Source of the DNA: Atopobium sp. oral taxon 416
Lineage (GTDB): Bacteria; Actinomycetota; Coriobacteriia; Coriobacteriales; Atopobiaceae
Length of the DNA: 64,000 nt
Direction of reading: 5' to 3'
NCBI RefSeq assembly: GCF_018128285.1
Contig: NZ_CP072380.1
Span: 434,001-498,000 of the forward strand
Shown here: positions 49,711-55,365 of the stretch, one piece after another
Numbering within the stretch: the stretch's first letter is position 1
Layout of the letters: each line of letters opens with the position of its first letter
Position numbers and translations under genes: made by a program
The notes under the pieces: model-generated
Database searches by the model: none
What the model saw: the letters and a program-made list of their open reading frames with translations, nothing else
What the model was told of the DNA's origin: nothing

Positions 49711-49914
49711 GTGAAGTGCTCCGATCTCGTTGAATCTGGCGCGACGCAGATGCAACGCATGGACTATCTCTTCGAGGGCGAGCCGATCCCTATCACGCTG
49801 CGCGTCCCGAGAAATCTCAAGGAGGTGGCGACTGAGACGGCGTGCCTACGTGGGGTAAGCTTCTCGGCCTTCGTCCGCTCATGCATCATTAACGAGCTAT
49901 CCGAGGGGGAATAG
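49711..49914 (+). CDS. Small ribbon-helix-helix-type protein
   Basis: 67 residues from GTG 49711, with AAGGAGG (49699-49705) 5 bases upstream. The C-terminal half, PITLRVPRNLKEVATETACL then RGVSFSAFVRSCIINELSEG, has the short beta strand and two helices of CopG/Arc-type DNA-binding proteins. It may regulate the restriction genes or act as a controller. It ends 3 bp before the next start, so it is the first cistron of the module. A longer frame from 49663 lacks RBS support. Confidence 0.65.
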   Translation: MKCSDLVESGATQMQRMDYLFEGEPIPITLRVPRNLKEVATETACLRGVSFSAFVRSCIINELSEGE

Positions 49915-49917
49915 CGA

Positions 49918-52224: not shown

Positions 52225-55200
52225 TTGTCTGCCAACGACTTCTTCCCACAACGACCTGACGACAAGCCAATCATCTACGCCTACCGAGAGCCTGGCAACC
52301 GTGAGCTCAAGGGACTGCTCAAGGTCGGCTACACAAGCCGGTCAATAGAAGAGCGCATGCACGAGCACTACCCGACCCTCAAACCCGGCGAGAGGCCCTA
52401 CAAGGTCGTGTTCACCGCGCCCGCGATGCGCTCCGACGGTACCACCTTCATGGACCACGAGGTGCACGCCAACCTCGAGGCGAACGGCTTCCGGCGCATG
52501 CGGGACCGCGACGGGAAGAAGACCGAGTGGTTCCGGTGCACCGTGTCAGACGTCAAGGCGGCCTACATCGCAGTCCGCGACCGTTCCGAGAACGTCGAGC
52601 GCCGCACGCGCGACTTCAGGATGCGCCCGGAGCAGGAGGCGGCCGTCCACAAGACGGAGGAATACTTCCGCTCGGTCGAGGAGGAGGGCGGCACCCATAC
52701 GCCGAAGTTCCTCTGGAACGCGAAGATGCGCTTCGGCAAGACCTTCGCCACCTACGAGCTCGCGAAGGACATGCACTTCACGCGCGTCCTGGTCCTCACC
52801 TTCAAGCCCGCGGTCCAGTCTGCCTGGGAGGAGGACCTCGCCACCCACGTCGACTTCGAGGGCTGGCAGTTCGTCAGCCGCCCGAAGGAGCCGGGGAGGC
52901 CTAACATCGCTGAGCAGTACGAGGCGGCGGACAAGTCGCGCCCAATCGTGTGCTTCGGCTCGTTCCAGGACTTCCTGGGACGCGAGAGGGACGGTCGTAT
53001 CAAGCCCCAGCACGAGTGGGTGCGCGAGGAGGACTGGGACCTCGTCGTCTTCGACGAGTACCACTTTGGCGCCTGGAACGAAAACTCGAAAAGCCTCTTC
53101 GAGCCCGAGGAAGAGGATGAGGCAAACACGCAGGAGGACATGGACACCCGCGTGGGCCACGTCAACACCGGCAACGAGATGGACGAGGGCGACCTGCCCA
53201 TCGTGACGCGCTTCTACCTCTTCCTCTCGGGGACGCCGTTTCGCGCCCTCAACTCCGGAGAGTTCATCGAGGAGCAGATCTTCAACTGGACCTACTCCGA
53301 CGAGCAGAGGGTCAAGGAGGCCTGGCCCAGGAAGCATCCCGGACAGCCGAACCCCTACGAGTCGCTCCCGCGCATGGTGATGCTCACCTACCAGATGCCC
53401 GAAGAGATTAGGAGGGTCGCGCTCGGCGGGGAGTACAACGGCTTCGACCTCAACACGTTCTTCGAGGCGAGGGGCCAGGGCGACGATGCCGAGTTTGTGC
53501 TCAGGGACTCGGTCCAGAAGTGGCTCGATCTCATCCGGGGCTCCTACAAGCCCTCGACCGTGGACGACCTCAAGCTGGGTGCAGAGAAGCCGGCGCTCCC
53601 ATATGCCGACACGAGGCTGCTGCACGTCCTCAACCACACGCTCTGGTACCTTCCCCGCGTGAATAGCTGCTACGCCATGAGGAACCTCCTGCGCGAGCCG
53701 CAGAACACCTTTTTCCACGACTACACGGTCAACGTGTGTGCCGGCCCCGAGGCAGGTGTCGGCGAGGCGGCGCTCGACAGGGTGCGCGAGAGCATGCAAG
53801 ACCCGCTGCACTCGCGCACGATAACTCTCACCTGTGGCAAGCTCACGACGGGCGTTACCGTGAAGCCCTGGTGCGGCATCTTCATGCTCACGAACATGAG
53901 GAGCCCCGAGACCTACTTCCAGGCGGCCTTCCGCGTTCAGTCGTCCTGGACGATCAGGAATGACGCCGGCGAGACCGAGATCATGAAGCGGGAGTGCTAC
54001 GTCTTCGATTTCGCGCTCGACCGGAGTCTGCGCATGGTCAGCGACTACAGCTGCCGGCTCAAGGTGGACGAGAATGTCGGCCCCGAGGAGAAGGTTGGGG
54101 AGTTCATTAACTTCCTGCCAGTGCTCGCCTACGACGGCAGCACCATGCGCCCAGTGAGCGCGGCGGACATCCTCGACATCGCAATGGCAGGCACGTCTGC
54201 GACGCTCCTTGCCCGCAGGTGGGAGAGCGCGCTCCTCGTGAACGTTGACAACGACACGCTCAGGAGGATTCTCGCCAACGAGGATGCGATGCGCGCTCTC
54301 ATGAGCATCGAGGGCTTCCGCAATCTCAACGAGGACATCGAGACCATCGTCAACCGCTCCGACGCCATCAAGAAGGCGAAGCGCGAGAGAGGAGACCTCA
54401 CCAAGAAGGAGAGGAAGGAGATCTCCGAGGAGGAGAAGGAACTCAAGAGCAAGCGCAAGCAGATCCAAGAGAAGCTCATCAAGTTCGCGACGCGCATACC
54501 GGTCTTCATGTACCTCACGGATTACAGAGAGCAGACGCTCAAGGACGTGATCACGCAGCTGGAGCCGGGTCTCTTCAAGAAGGTTACCGGCCTCACCGTG
54601 AAGGACTTCGAGCTCCTGGTATCGCTCGGAGTCTTCAACGACGTGCTCATGAACGACGCCGTGTACAAGTTCCGCCGCTACGAGGACTCCTCGCTCACCT
54701 ATGCAGGCGTCGATAGGCACGCCGGCGAGCGCGTCGGCCTCTTCGACACGACGCTCTCTGACTTCGAGTACATGCAGATGGCTCAGCAGGAGTCCATGGT
54801 GGCTCCGAACGGGCTCGCAACATCTCCCGATGCTCGGACTTCGCGAGGGGACCGGAATGTGAAAGATGCGGCTTCTACATTGGTAAAGGCGCGATCGCAT
54901 GAGACGCTAACAGCTGCGCAGGCTCCAAGACGCGACTGGGTTCTCGATGCGCTTGACGACGAGGGAATCGACTACGTCGACCGTCGCGCGGGCGGCGGCT
55001 GCCTCTGGGTGCCCGGGGGCAGCAGCATCGAGGAACGCCTTGGTCCTGTGATAAAGAGAGGTGCGGGCTTCAAGTACAGCACGACGGGTGGCAGGGTCAC
55101 GCATGGCAGGCCCGCTTGGTGGCTCAAGGGCTACCCCGAGGCGCGCGACGGCGAACCGGATGGCCCGCTCGTCTTGAAGGTGGAGCTCGATGCCCTCGAC

Positions 55201-55365
55201 GTGGGTGACACCGTGTTCCACAAGGCGTTCGGTTACGGGGAGGTCGTCAACCTGAGCGACAAGTACGTGATGGTCTCCTTCGAGAATGACAACCACAAGA
55301 AGAAGCCGTTCAGGCAGTTCGGGTTCCCAAGTGCCTTCTATCAGGGGCTGCTGAGGATTGTGTAG
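52225..55365 (+). CDS. GIY-YIG/T5orf172 nuclease domain fused to a superfamily 2 helicase (restriction subunit)
   Basis: 1046 residues. Residues 14-110 look like a GIY-YIG nuclease of the T5orf172 type: PIIYAYREPG, LLKVGYTSRSIEERMHEHYP, HEVHANLEANGFRRMR and TEWFRC, giving the paired YAY/VGY core, an Arg and a Glu. Residues 133-600 are an SF2 helicase: WNAKMRFGKTFATYELA (Walker A, 165-181), VVFDEYHFG (DEYH 277-280), LFLSGTPFRAL (motif III), then a helicase C-terminal half with TCGKLTTGVTVKPWCGIFM and FQAAFRVQSSW. Residues 735-790 are a charged coiled-coil. It probably translocates and cleaves unmodified DNA. TTG 52225 has AAGGAG 7 bases upstream. Confidence 0.82.
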   Translation: MSANDFFPQRPDDKPIIYAYREPGNRELKGLLKVGYTSRSIEERMHEHYPTLKPGERPYKVVFTAPAMRSDGTTFMDHEVHANLEANGFRRMRDRDGKKTEWFRCTVSDVKAAYIAVRDRSENVERRTRDFRMRPEQEAAVHKTEEYFRSVEEEGGTHTPKFLWNAKMRFGKTFATYELAKDMHFTRVLVLTFKPAVQSAWEEDLATHVDFEGWQFVSRPKEPGRPNIAEQYEAADKSRPIVCFGSFQDFLGRERDGRIKPQHEWVREEDWDLVVFDEYHFGAWNENSKSLFEPEEEDEANTQEDMDTRVGHVNTGNEMDEGDLPIVTRFYLFLSGTPFRALNSGEFIEEQIFNWTYSDEQRVKEAWPRKHPGQPNPYESLPRMVMLTYQMPEEIRRVALGGEYNGFDLNTFFEARGQGDDAEFVLRDSVQKWLDLIRGSYKPSTVDDLKLGAEKPALPYADTRLLHVLNHTLWYLPRVNSCYAMRNLLREPQNTFFHDYTVNVCAGPEAGVGEAALDRVRESMQDPLHSRTITLTCGKLTTGVTVKPWCGIFMLTNMRSPETYFQAAFRVQSSWTIRNDAGETEIMKRECYVFDFALDRSLRMVSDYSCRLKVDENVGPEEKVGEFINFLPVLAYDGSTMRPVSAADILDIAMAGTSATLLARRWESALLVNVDNDTLRRILANEDAMRALMSIEGFRNLNEDIETIVNRSDAIKKAKRERGDLTKKERKEISEEEKELKSKRKQIQEKLIKFATRIPVFMYLTDYREQTLKDVITQLEPGLFKKVTGLTVKDFELLVSLGVFNDVLMNDAVYKFRRYEDSSLTYAGVDRHAGERVGLFDTTLSDFEYMQMAQQESMVAPNGLATSPDARTSRGDRNVKDAASTLVKARSHETLTAAQAPRRDWVLDALDDEGIDYVDRRAGGGCLWVPGGSSIEERLGPVIKRGAGFKYSTTGGRVTHGRPAWWLKGYPEARDGEPDGPLVLKVELDALDVGDTVFHKAFGYGEVVNLSDKYVMVSFENDNHKKKPFRQFGFPSAFYQGLLRIV

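Follow-up and report, generated by a model that had tools for sequence, protein, structure and literature searches.

The closest described relative of the locus is DrdVI from Deinococcus wulumuqiensis NEB 479, which comprises M1.DrdVI, M2.DrdVI and DrdVI and was filed as Type IIG by the REBASE authors; M1-2.DrdVI, cloned in E. coli, was assigned m6A in GCAGCC (PMC6430315). In a second source, DrdVI and MaeIV are placed in a "split methylase/RM" family, and M1-M2.MaeIV of the archaeon Methanococcus aeolicus is assigned m6A in GCACY on one strand; the likeness of MaeIV to DrdVI is taken here from its authors' naming (PMC10113651). A third source treats DrdVI as a translocase and an REase fused together and reports a GIY-YIG domain for its homologue in Bibersteinia. 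The Bibersteinia trehalosi system (Btr188ORF1790/ORF1760), reported there as inactive, consists of homologues of M1/M2 and of a GIY-YIG translocase-REase, and differs in that its M1- and M2-like parts lie at the two ends of one broken or split region (PMC4996451). The Type ISP enzymes LlaGI and LlaBIII unite a nuclease, an SF2 motor, a coupler and an N6 methylase with a recognition domain, and their asymmetric targets are methylated on one strand (PMC4666363).

The window analyzed here, a stretch of 64,000 nt from Atopobium sp. oral taxon 416, carries four open frames on the forward strand in the order RHH, M1, M2 and HEL (table 1). The first-pass annotation had described an intact run of these four genes with gaps of 3, about 100 and 1 bp, and this is correct: all frames are open, and the gaps are 3 nt (RHH to M1), 101 nt (M1 to M2) and 1 nt (M2 to HEL). 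The M1-M2 gap would be 77 nt with a start of M2 at TTG 50697, but ATG 50721 is used because the frames of the relatives begin about there.

Table 1. Features of the locus and its flanks, in window positions
Feature	Position	Strand	Remarks
IS-like remnant, left flank	46267..47348	-	inverted copy of 55817-56896
RHH gene	49711..49914	+	67 codons; GTG start 49711, stop 49912-49914
M1 (half A)	49918..50619	+	TTG start 49918, 233 aa, stop to 50619
M1-M2 spacer	50620..50720	+	101 nt
M2	50721..52223	+	500 aa from ATG 50721; 508 aa from TTG 50697; stop to 52223
Half B of M2	50739..51086	+	duplicated Rossmann-type half; Lys for motif I Gly, motif II acid absent
CxxC insert of M2	51087..51248	+	C153, C156; Cys in 66/66 rows at both positions
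Catalytic half of M2, Eco57I-type	51249..51551	+	NPPYQ in 66/66 rows
Putative target-recognition region of M2	51564..52106	+	most variable M2 part
HEL	52225..55365	+	TTG start 52225, 1046 aa
GIY-YIG nuclease domain of HEL	52252..52569	+	Y18, Y20, K33, G35, R44, E101
SF2 helicase of HEL	52597..54144	+	RFGKT, DEYH, SGTPFR, QAAFRVQ
Variable C-terminal extension of HEL	54802..55362	+	common mainly to Coriobacteriia
IS-like remnant, right flank	55817..56896	+	inverted-repeat partner of left remnant

The plasmid pDrdVI of Deinococcus wulumuqiensis carries counterparts of all three core genes, ordered as in the window, with identities of 43% (M1), 49% (M2) and 53% (HEL) over alignments that cover M1 and M2 almost completely and HEL from residue 10 to 845. 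The motifs are also split in the same way, with LEPACGSGNFL in M1 and LDPCTKSGVF and NPPYQ in M2. The window differs in the RHH gene in front, the M1-M2 spacer and the C-terminal extension of HEL. Because the three pDrdVI genes match in this order and at these identities, the core of M1, M2 and HEL is, as judged by homology, a new member of the DrdVI type, a named but little-studied kind. In detail, M1, M2 and the translocase-REase are adjacent in this order, all three proteins are homologous, and the GIY-YIG nuclease and the SF2 motor are found in one chain. The restriction-modification module that the first-pass annotation had recognized, with its pair of methylase-like genes and a single chain uniting GIY-YIG and SF2 helicase, is thus upheld, while its claim of a layout unlike any named one fails, since the three core genes match DrdVI gene for gene. 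It had regarded a match of all four genes to a named type as evidence against novelty; such a match exists for M1, M2 and HEL and is missing for RHH. On the same ground, an unnamed defence type was set aside.

The layout also departs from the classical Types I, II and III, as had been proposed. Type I was rejected on the absence of any HsdS-like match in the four proteins or in the 20 neighbouring frames scanned, and Type III on the Eco57I-type methylase in two genes and the GIY-YIG helicase, the likeness to Type III being limited to the ResIII helicase domain of HEL. A strict Type IIG was rejected, with nuclease and methylase in separate window genes. Type ISP enzymes are single chains with an Mrr-family nuclease and without an M1 subunit, whereas the window has separate genes and a T5orf172 nuclease; membership was rejected on this basis, and by analogy the two likely share the same working logic. 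In a search of PADLOC models, suggested earlier as a check, PDLC03626 (Type IIG, 1359 positions) matches HEL at 1e-27 and M2 at 2e-51, whereas none of the models matches M1 better than 4e-10. This model also covers a one-chain form from Enterococcus, unlike the window, in which helicase and methylase are separate genes.

In M1, the Pfam matches to MmeI_Mtase (1.7e-5) and N6_Mtase (0.08) are both under the cut-off and confined to the N-terminal part, and the comparison with solved structures gave a match to a Type I M subunit (0.0045). SAM motif I (FLEPACGxGNFL) and the motif II acid (D/E) are present in 58 of 58 M1 rows, and a search of the same rows for catalytic motif IV in the forms NPP[YFWH], DPP[YFW] and SPP[YFW] found it in none. 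By its motifs, M1 is a SAM-binding half methylase without the catalytic motif. In a distant variant, motif I of half A reads CGEA and not CGxG in all nine frames where the motif was recognized; the SAM site therefore deviates there too, which counts against the reading preferred below.

M2 matches Eco57I (4e-35) and N6_Mtase (2e-6) in Pfam and has no match among solved structures. Conservation within the protein peaks in half B (71% mean pairwise identity). The position of the motif I glycine is lysine in 64 of 66 rows (K65, 508-aa numbering), the exceptions being L098 with glycine and L077 with the motif outside the frame used, and the motif II position is A, S, G or P in 66 of 66, an acid in none. 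As a control, 43 open frames with NPP[YFW] were collected from related genomes, eight of them family members and 35 others. Motif I was recognized with glycine in 21 of the 35, none was recognized in 13, and one gave a spurious match only, so that glycine stands at this position in 21 of 21 recognized. The raw tally was 18 G and 4 K; all four K matches fall on an unrelated NAGKKAGEF stretch, and three of these four frames also carry a true motif I with glycine. The first-pass annotation had seen a half methylase next to a full one. Two methylase-like genes are indeed present; they appear as complementary halves, M1 being without NPPY, and "full" fits M2 imperfectly because its SAM-binding motifs are degenerate. 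The CxxC insert would be zinc-knuckle-like.

The recognition region of M2 shows 35% mean pairwise identity. Against the nearest relatives (L025, L027 and L028) it is 28-30% identical, compared with 86-90% for half B; for L025 alone, the values are 90% for half B, 89% for the helicase and 30% for the recognition region. Target recognition probably lies in this most variable part of M2. Across 56 loci, half B distances correlate with those of M1 (r 0.63) and of the helicase (r 0.64), compared with 0.33 and 0.43, respectively, for the catalytic half. Among distant pairs only (helicase distance >= 0.2), helicase tracking is 0.30 for half B versus 0.26 for the catalytic half, and M1 tracking 0.25 versus 0.06. 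Half B tracks M1 and the helicase more than the catalytic half does, but the difference shrinks in distant pairs.

HEL consists of an N-terminal T5orf172 GIY-YIG nuclease (Pfam 2e-12), an SF2 helicase (ResIII, 9e-5), a conserved following region and the variable C-terminal extension. Among solved structures it found a coiled-coil match only, and no solved restriction enzyme. Residues Y18, K33, G35, R44 and E101 occur in 80 of 80 rows and Y20 in 79; these GIY-YIG residues do not vary across a set of 28 sequences, with pDrdVI and the distant variants among them. In the Pfam scan of the pDrdVI helicase, T5orf172 was not detected at E <= 0.001, although the catalytic residues align. GKT and DE are present in all 80 rows; the further helicase motifs, given under the names we assume to apply, are those visible in the sequence of HEL.

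The M1-M2-HEL operon occurs in several bacterial phyla and in one archaeon. The best 80 of at least 591 HEL relatives are 55-81% identical over the matched part. Of their loci, 63 offer at least 2400 bp upstream of HEL, and both M1 and M2 are found there in 61. In 100 related genomes, HEL was matched at E=0 in 10 and M1 in nine of these; none of the rest of the 100 passed 1e-5 for M1. A sample of the phylum gave 10 other genomes with M1 at E <= 1.7e-20, and HEL is matched in every one of them. The association of the genes is far beyond chance. The conserved four-gene synteny that had been suggested as a check is one of three genes, as an RHH match adjoins M1 in only 4 of 89 other loci (L025, L027, L113 and L125, all Coriobacteriia).

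Several other arrangements were found. In L098, one of the 61 loci, M1 and M2 both match one hybrid gene with motif I of half A and motif II of half B, which may be a product of assembly or deletion and weighs against the reading preferred below. The helicase protein of distant relatives carries half B fused to its C-terminus, and half A is joined to, or adjoins, the catalytic half. Three phage loci have an M1-type half and a catalytic half, with neither half B nor helicase. These last two natural rearrangements speak for the preferred reading. In L131 and L132, nuclease and methylase form one polypeptide. Some relatives carry extra genes between M2 and HEL; of 26 such proteins listed, 10 were scanned, with Bro-N, RhuM, AbiE-type or DUF1016 matches in seven, a 23S-IVP-like match in one and no match in two. 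These genes were rejected as a constant part of the system.

The explanation that we prefer, and hold with considerable confidence on the sequence comparisons, is a DrdVI-type, ATP-dependent restriction-modification system of three proteins, with a split methylase, half B as coupler and motor-driven cutting. The SAM pocket would come from M1, the NPPY loop and the recognition of the target from the second half of M2, and they would therefore constitute one adenine methylase in trans. Half B would be a SAM-dead copy of half A which attaches the methylase to HEL. Where a target is unmethylated, HEL would hydrolyse ATP and move along the DNA until its GIY-YIG domain cuts, probably upon the meeting of two complexes as in Type ISP enzymes, the analogy with which suggests translocation, collision and cleavage alike. 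On a conserved core of M1, half B and HEL, specificity may be exchanged as a module made up of M2's catalytic half and recognition region. We lean, by a small degree, towards the more specific proposal of a composite site (M1 pocket and M2 loop), with half B as an invariant-lysine motor coupler that moves with the helicase and can be part of either protein, and with an exchangeable specificity cassette. If so, half B would be a natural pseudo-enzyme half acting as a coupler, and a natural point of specificity exchange would lie at the module boundary close to residue 130 of M2. No published description of the M1/half B/catalytic-half anatomy was found in a search of a collection with few subscription journals and no preprints. 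An operon described by no single PADLOC model is now tied to a named, partly characterized family, and offers a concrete route to how a split DNA methylase assembles and couples to a DNA motor.

Alternatively, M2 alone binds SAM through half B and methylates, with M1 in a purely accessory or allosteric role like that of METTL14 beside METTL3. M2 does have all the Rossmann-like segments, placed in their customary order, both N6_Mtase and Eco57I match it, and its half B is highly conserved. Half B and the catalytic half could form a complete fold binding SAM unusually. The lysine at the motif I glycine and the missing motif II acid, set against the glycine of all the recognized controls, and the three viral records that pair half A with a catalytic half without half B, make this unlikely.

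A decayed, inactive copy between insertion-sequence remnants seems somewhat less probable still. It would agree with the IS-like remnants in inverted order on both flanks (arms 85-96% complementary), which we take to be IS30-like, with the 101-nt spacer and with the presence of two further related systems in other parts of the genome; it is opposed because every frame is intact and the catalytic residues are present in M1, M2 and HEL. Very improbable is an abortive or modification-sensing system of the BREX, DISARM or MADS kind, in which HEL spares unmethylated DNA. Helicase and methylase are common in such systems, and M1 and M2 have weak PADLOC matches to MADS mad2 and to PglX models, but no BREX, DISARM or MADS component, such as BrxC/PglZ or DrmA/DrmB, was matched in 10 neighbouring frames, and within that scope membership was set aside; moreover, the GIY-YIG residues of HEL are intact and the DrdVI family is classed under restriction-modification.

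Around the DrdVI-type core, the RHH gene has been added locally, and its rarity among the other loci led to its rejection as a core part. Its protein has weak RHH_1/DUF6290 matches below the Pfam cut-offs, and its GTG start is preceded by an aaggagg stretch, with L025 and L027 starting at the same aligned place. The CopG/Arc-like protein is probably an operon autoregulator and would limit the expression of this copy. The promoter and terminator scan of the locus gave no signal usefully above shuffles. The length of the M1-M2 spacer is unusual, the genes abutting or nearly abutting in most relatives; in Olsenella porci (L027), a 227-aa GIY-YIG-like gene sits in the position of this spacer.

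The four open frames read from the window sequence lie where the first-pass annotation had placed them and encode a small RHH-like protein (RHH), two methylase-like proteins (M1 and M2) and a GIY-YIG/SF2 helicase fusion (HEL). Pfam showed Eco57I in M2 and T5orf172 with ResIII in HEL; the methylase matches of M1 were below threshold and confined to its N-terminus. The plasmid matches of HEL included pDrdVI of Deinococcus wulumuqiensis NEB 479, with three adjacent genes that share 43, 49 and 53% identity with M1, M2 and HEL, respectively. Published accounts and the gene order lead us to read them as M1.DrdVI, M2.DrdVI and DrdVI, in this order. 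The annotation had inferred that the module matches neither the classical Type I, II or III layouts nor BREX or DISARM; this trio places three of its four genes in a named system. The window operon is a real, intact and widespread system, already named (DrdVI-type). According to the literature on DrdVI (PMC6430315) and on MaeIV, an archaeal member (PMC10113651), M1 with M2 methylates adenine at short asymmetric sites. What the analysis adds to the known system is the hypothesis of a methylase site split between M1 and M2 and joined to a coupler, an anatomy of DrdVI-type enzymes for which no description was found in the literature searched.

Positions of the operon, its flanking elements and the genes discussed in related loci
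Feature	Sequence	Position	Product
RHH	window	from GTG 49711	67 codons
M1	window	from TTG 49918	233 aa
M2	window	from ATG 50721 (most likely start)	500 aa
M2, alternative start	window	from TTG 50697	508 aa
HEL	window	from TTG 52225	1046 aa
IS-like remnant	window	46267-47348	
IS-like remnant	window	55817-56896	
HATPase_c_4 protein	window	41022-42170 (-)	383 aa
A-type system	own genome, G000:C1 (L113)	about 968.6-974.0 kb	RHH, M1, M2, HEL
C-type system	own genome, G000:C1 (L114)	about 673.3-678.7 kb	
M1/M2 hybrid gene	L098	5662-7158	
Gene between M1 and M2	L027	5803-6486	227 aa
Half A-catalytic half fusion	L242	5653-7224	523 aa
Lone M1-like gene	L211	660-1340	

The methylase motifs are divided between the two proteins. 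All 58 aligned M1 proteins carry the motif I glycine and the motif II acid (D/E), and none contains NPP[YFWH], DPP[YFW] or SPP[YFW]. NPPYQ is found in all 66 aligned M2 proteins, in which the motif I glycine position is lysine in 64 (glycine in locus L098; in L077 motif I is not seen in the M2 frame used and its aligned lysine is no real motif) and A, S, G or P stands in place of the motif II acid in all. As a control, the other N6-methylase frames of related genomes showed glycine at the motif I position in 21/21 recognised. Profile comparison indicated, with 97% probability, that the SAM-motif half of M1 (half A) is homologous to the first half of M2 (half B), which precedes the catalytic, NPPY-bearing half. 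In HEL, the nuclease residues Y18, K33, G35, R44 and E101 are invariant over 80 rows, and Y20 is present in 79.

Related loci showed the same parts in other arrangements than the separate genes of the window (layout A). In layout B (L131, L132 and L123), helicase, half B and catalytic half form one chain and the M1-like gene is separate. In layout C, the helicase protein ends in half B, and half A either shares a chain with the catalytic half (L114, L116) or has a neighboring gene of its own (L120, L121). Methylase frames are interrupted in L117, L118, L119 and L122, and helicase frames in L116 and L122. The half B lysine was found in 13 of the 14 loci of layouts B, C and plasmid A that were checked; in L116, half B falls outside the called frames. 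In half A, the C form and L123 show CGEA in place of CGxG (9/9 frames recognised), a departure from the canonical motif. The window's own genome (3.0 Mb, single contig) carries a second A-type system as well as a C-type one, the latter with the half A-catalytic half fusion and half B ending the helicase. The L098 gene is M1-like through motif I and beyond and continues as M2, with no separate M1; it may stem from a deletion that joined the two homologous halves, or from the assembly.

The modules differ in conservation. Mean pairwise identity within M2 is 71% in half B, 67% in the catalytic half and 35% in the recognition region, and 72% in the helicase region of HEL. Between the window and its nearest relative (L025), half B and helicase are 90 and 89% identical, the catalytic half 65% and the recognition region 30%, the fall occurring at about residue 130-135 of M2. 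Over 56 loci, half B distances correlated with those of M1 (0.63) and helicase (0.64) and less with the catalytic half (0.23), which followed the recognition region (0.65) more closely than M1 (0.33) or helicase (0.43). The difference between half B and catalytic half stayed positive in 200 subsamples of 70% of the loci, never falling below 0.09 for helicase and 0.15 for M1. Among distant pairs alone, the contrast almost vanished for helicase (0.30 vs 0.26) and persisted for M1 (0.25 vs 0.06).

Gene set, order, motifs and module pattern are direct observations. The methylase active site would be a composite of M1 and M2, with half B as a putative coupler. By analogy with Type ISP enzymes, HEL is predicted to translocate by ATP hydrolysis and to cleave through GIY-YIG, and two sites would be needed; PMC4666363 describes Type ISP enzymes as methylating one strand and cutting after head-to-head translocation.

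The HEL search of genome contigs gave at least 591 stretches encoding relatives, and the best 80, which were retained, span several bacterial phyla and include one archaeon (L050, Thermoplasmata). Among these 80, M1 and M2 matches lie upstream of HEL in 61 of the 63 loci whose upstream sequence extends for 2400 bp or more. Of the two exceptions, L026 (Parafannyhessea umbonata) has an M2 cut short by an unrelated gene, and L054 has neither. The 61 include L098 with its single hybrid gene; in L036, M1 is spread over two frames. The other 17 loci, where the upstream sequence is shorter, were counted separately, and M2 was visible in 13 of them. An E=0 HEL match occurred in 10 of 100 related genomes, nine of which have M1 (the tenth is G031, of the same family). 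In the phylum sample (296 genomes), M1 was found at E <= 1.7e-20 in 11, own genome included, and HEL matched in all 10 others; the eleventh genome tested, G290, with a weak M1 match, gave no HEL match. RHH adjoins M1 in only 4/89 other loci, all Coriobacteriia.

Additional genes are found within the operon in some relatives. For instance, Olsenella porci (L027) has a separate gene, GIY-YIG-like by eye, at the site of the window's 101-nt M1-M2 spacer. In several relatives (e.g., L030, L056, L061, L078, L087 and L094), cargo genes of Bro-N, RhuM, AbiE-type and DUF1016 kinds, which also occur within Type I operons, are placed between M2 and HEL.

In IMG/VR, the M1 profile retrieved 52 loci, of which 33 contain M1, M2 and HEL together (tblastn). 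Half A and catalytic half occur without half B in three, fused in L242 and adjacent in L244 and L251. In the single phage protein of L242, half A, 62% identical to pDrdVI M1, runs straight on into the catalytic and recognition halves. HEL was found in none of 12 viral records searched whole, which may be fragments and were searched with no positive control, though the identical query matched in the 33 other IMG/VR loci in a separate search. M1-like half A genes with no adjoining M2 or HEL were seen in the viral records L211, L246, L247, L248, L250, L253 and L258, and also in Klebsiella phage KpV477 (L261) and Aeromonas phage Aeh1 (L262), these two phage-collection matches being weak (29-33% identity). 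Such genes could be remnants, or proteins interfering with or exploiting host DrdVI-type systems.

The window operon is enclosed, in the style of a composite element, by two mutually inverted IS-like remnants whose four arm pairs are 85-96% complementary. Elsewhere in the window, one protein has a HATPase_c_4 domain of the RecG-C-terminal-like kind and matches AlbA_2 weakly; in PADLOC, models for short Argonaute-associated proteins and for CasR also matched it weakly.
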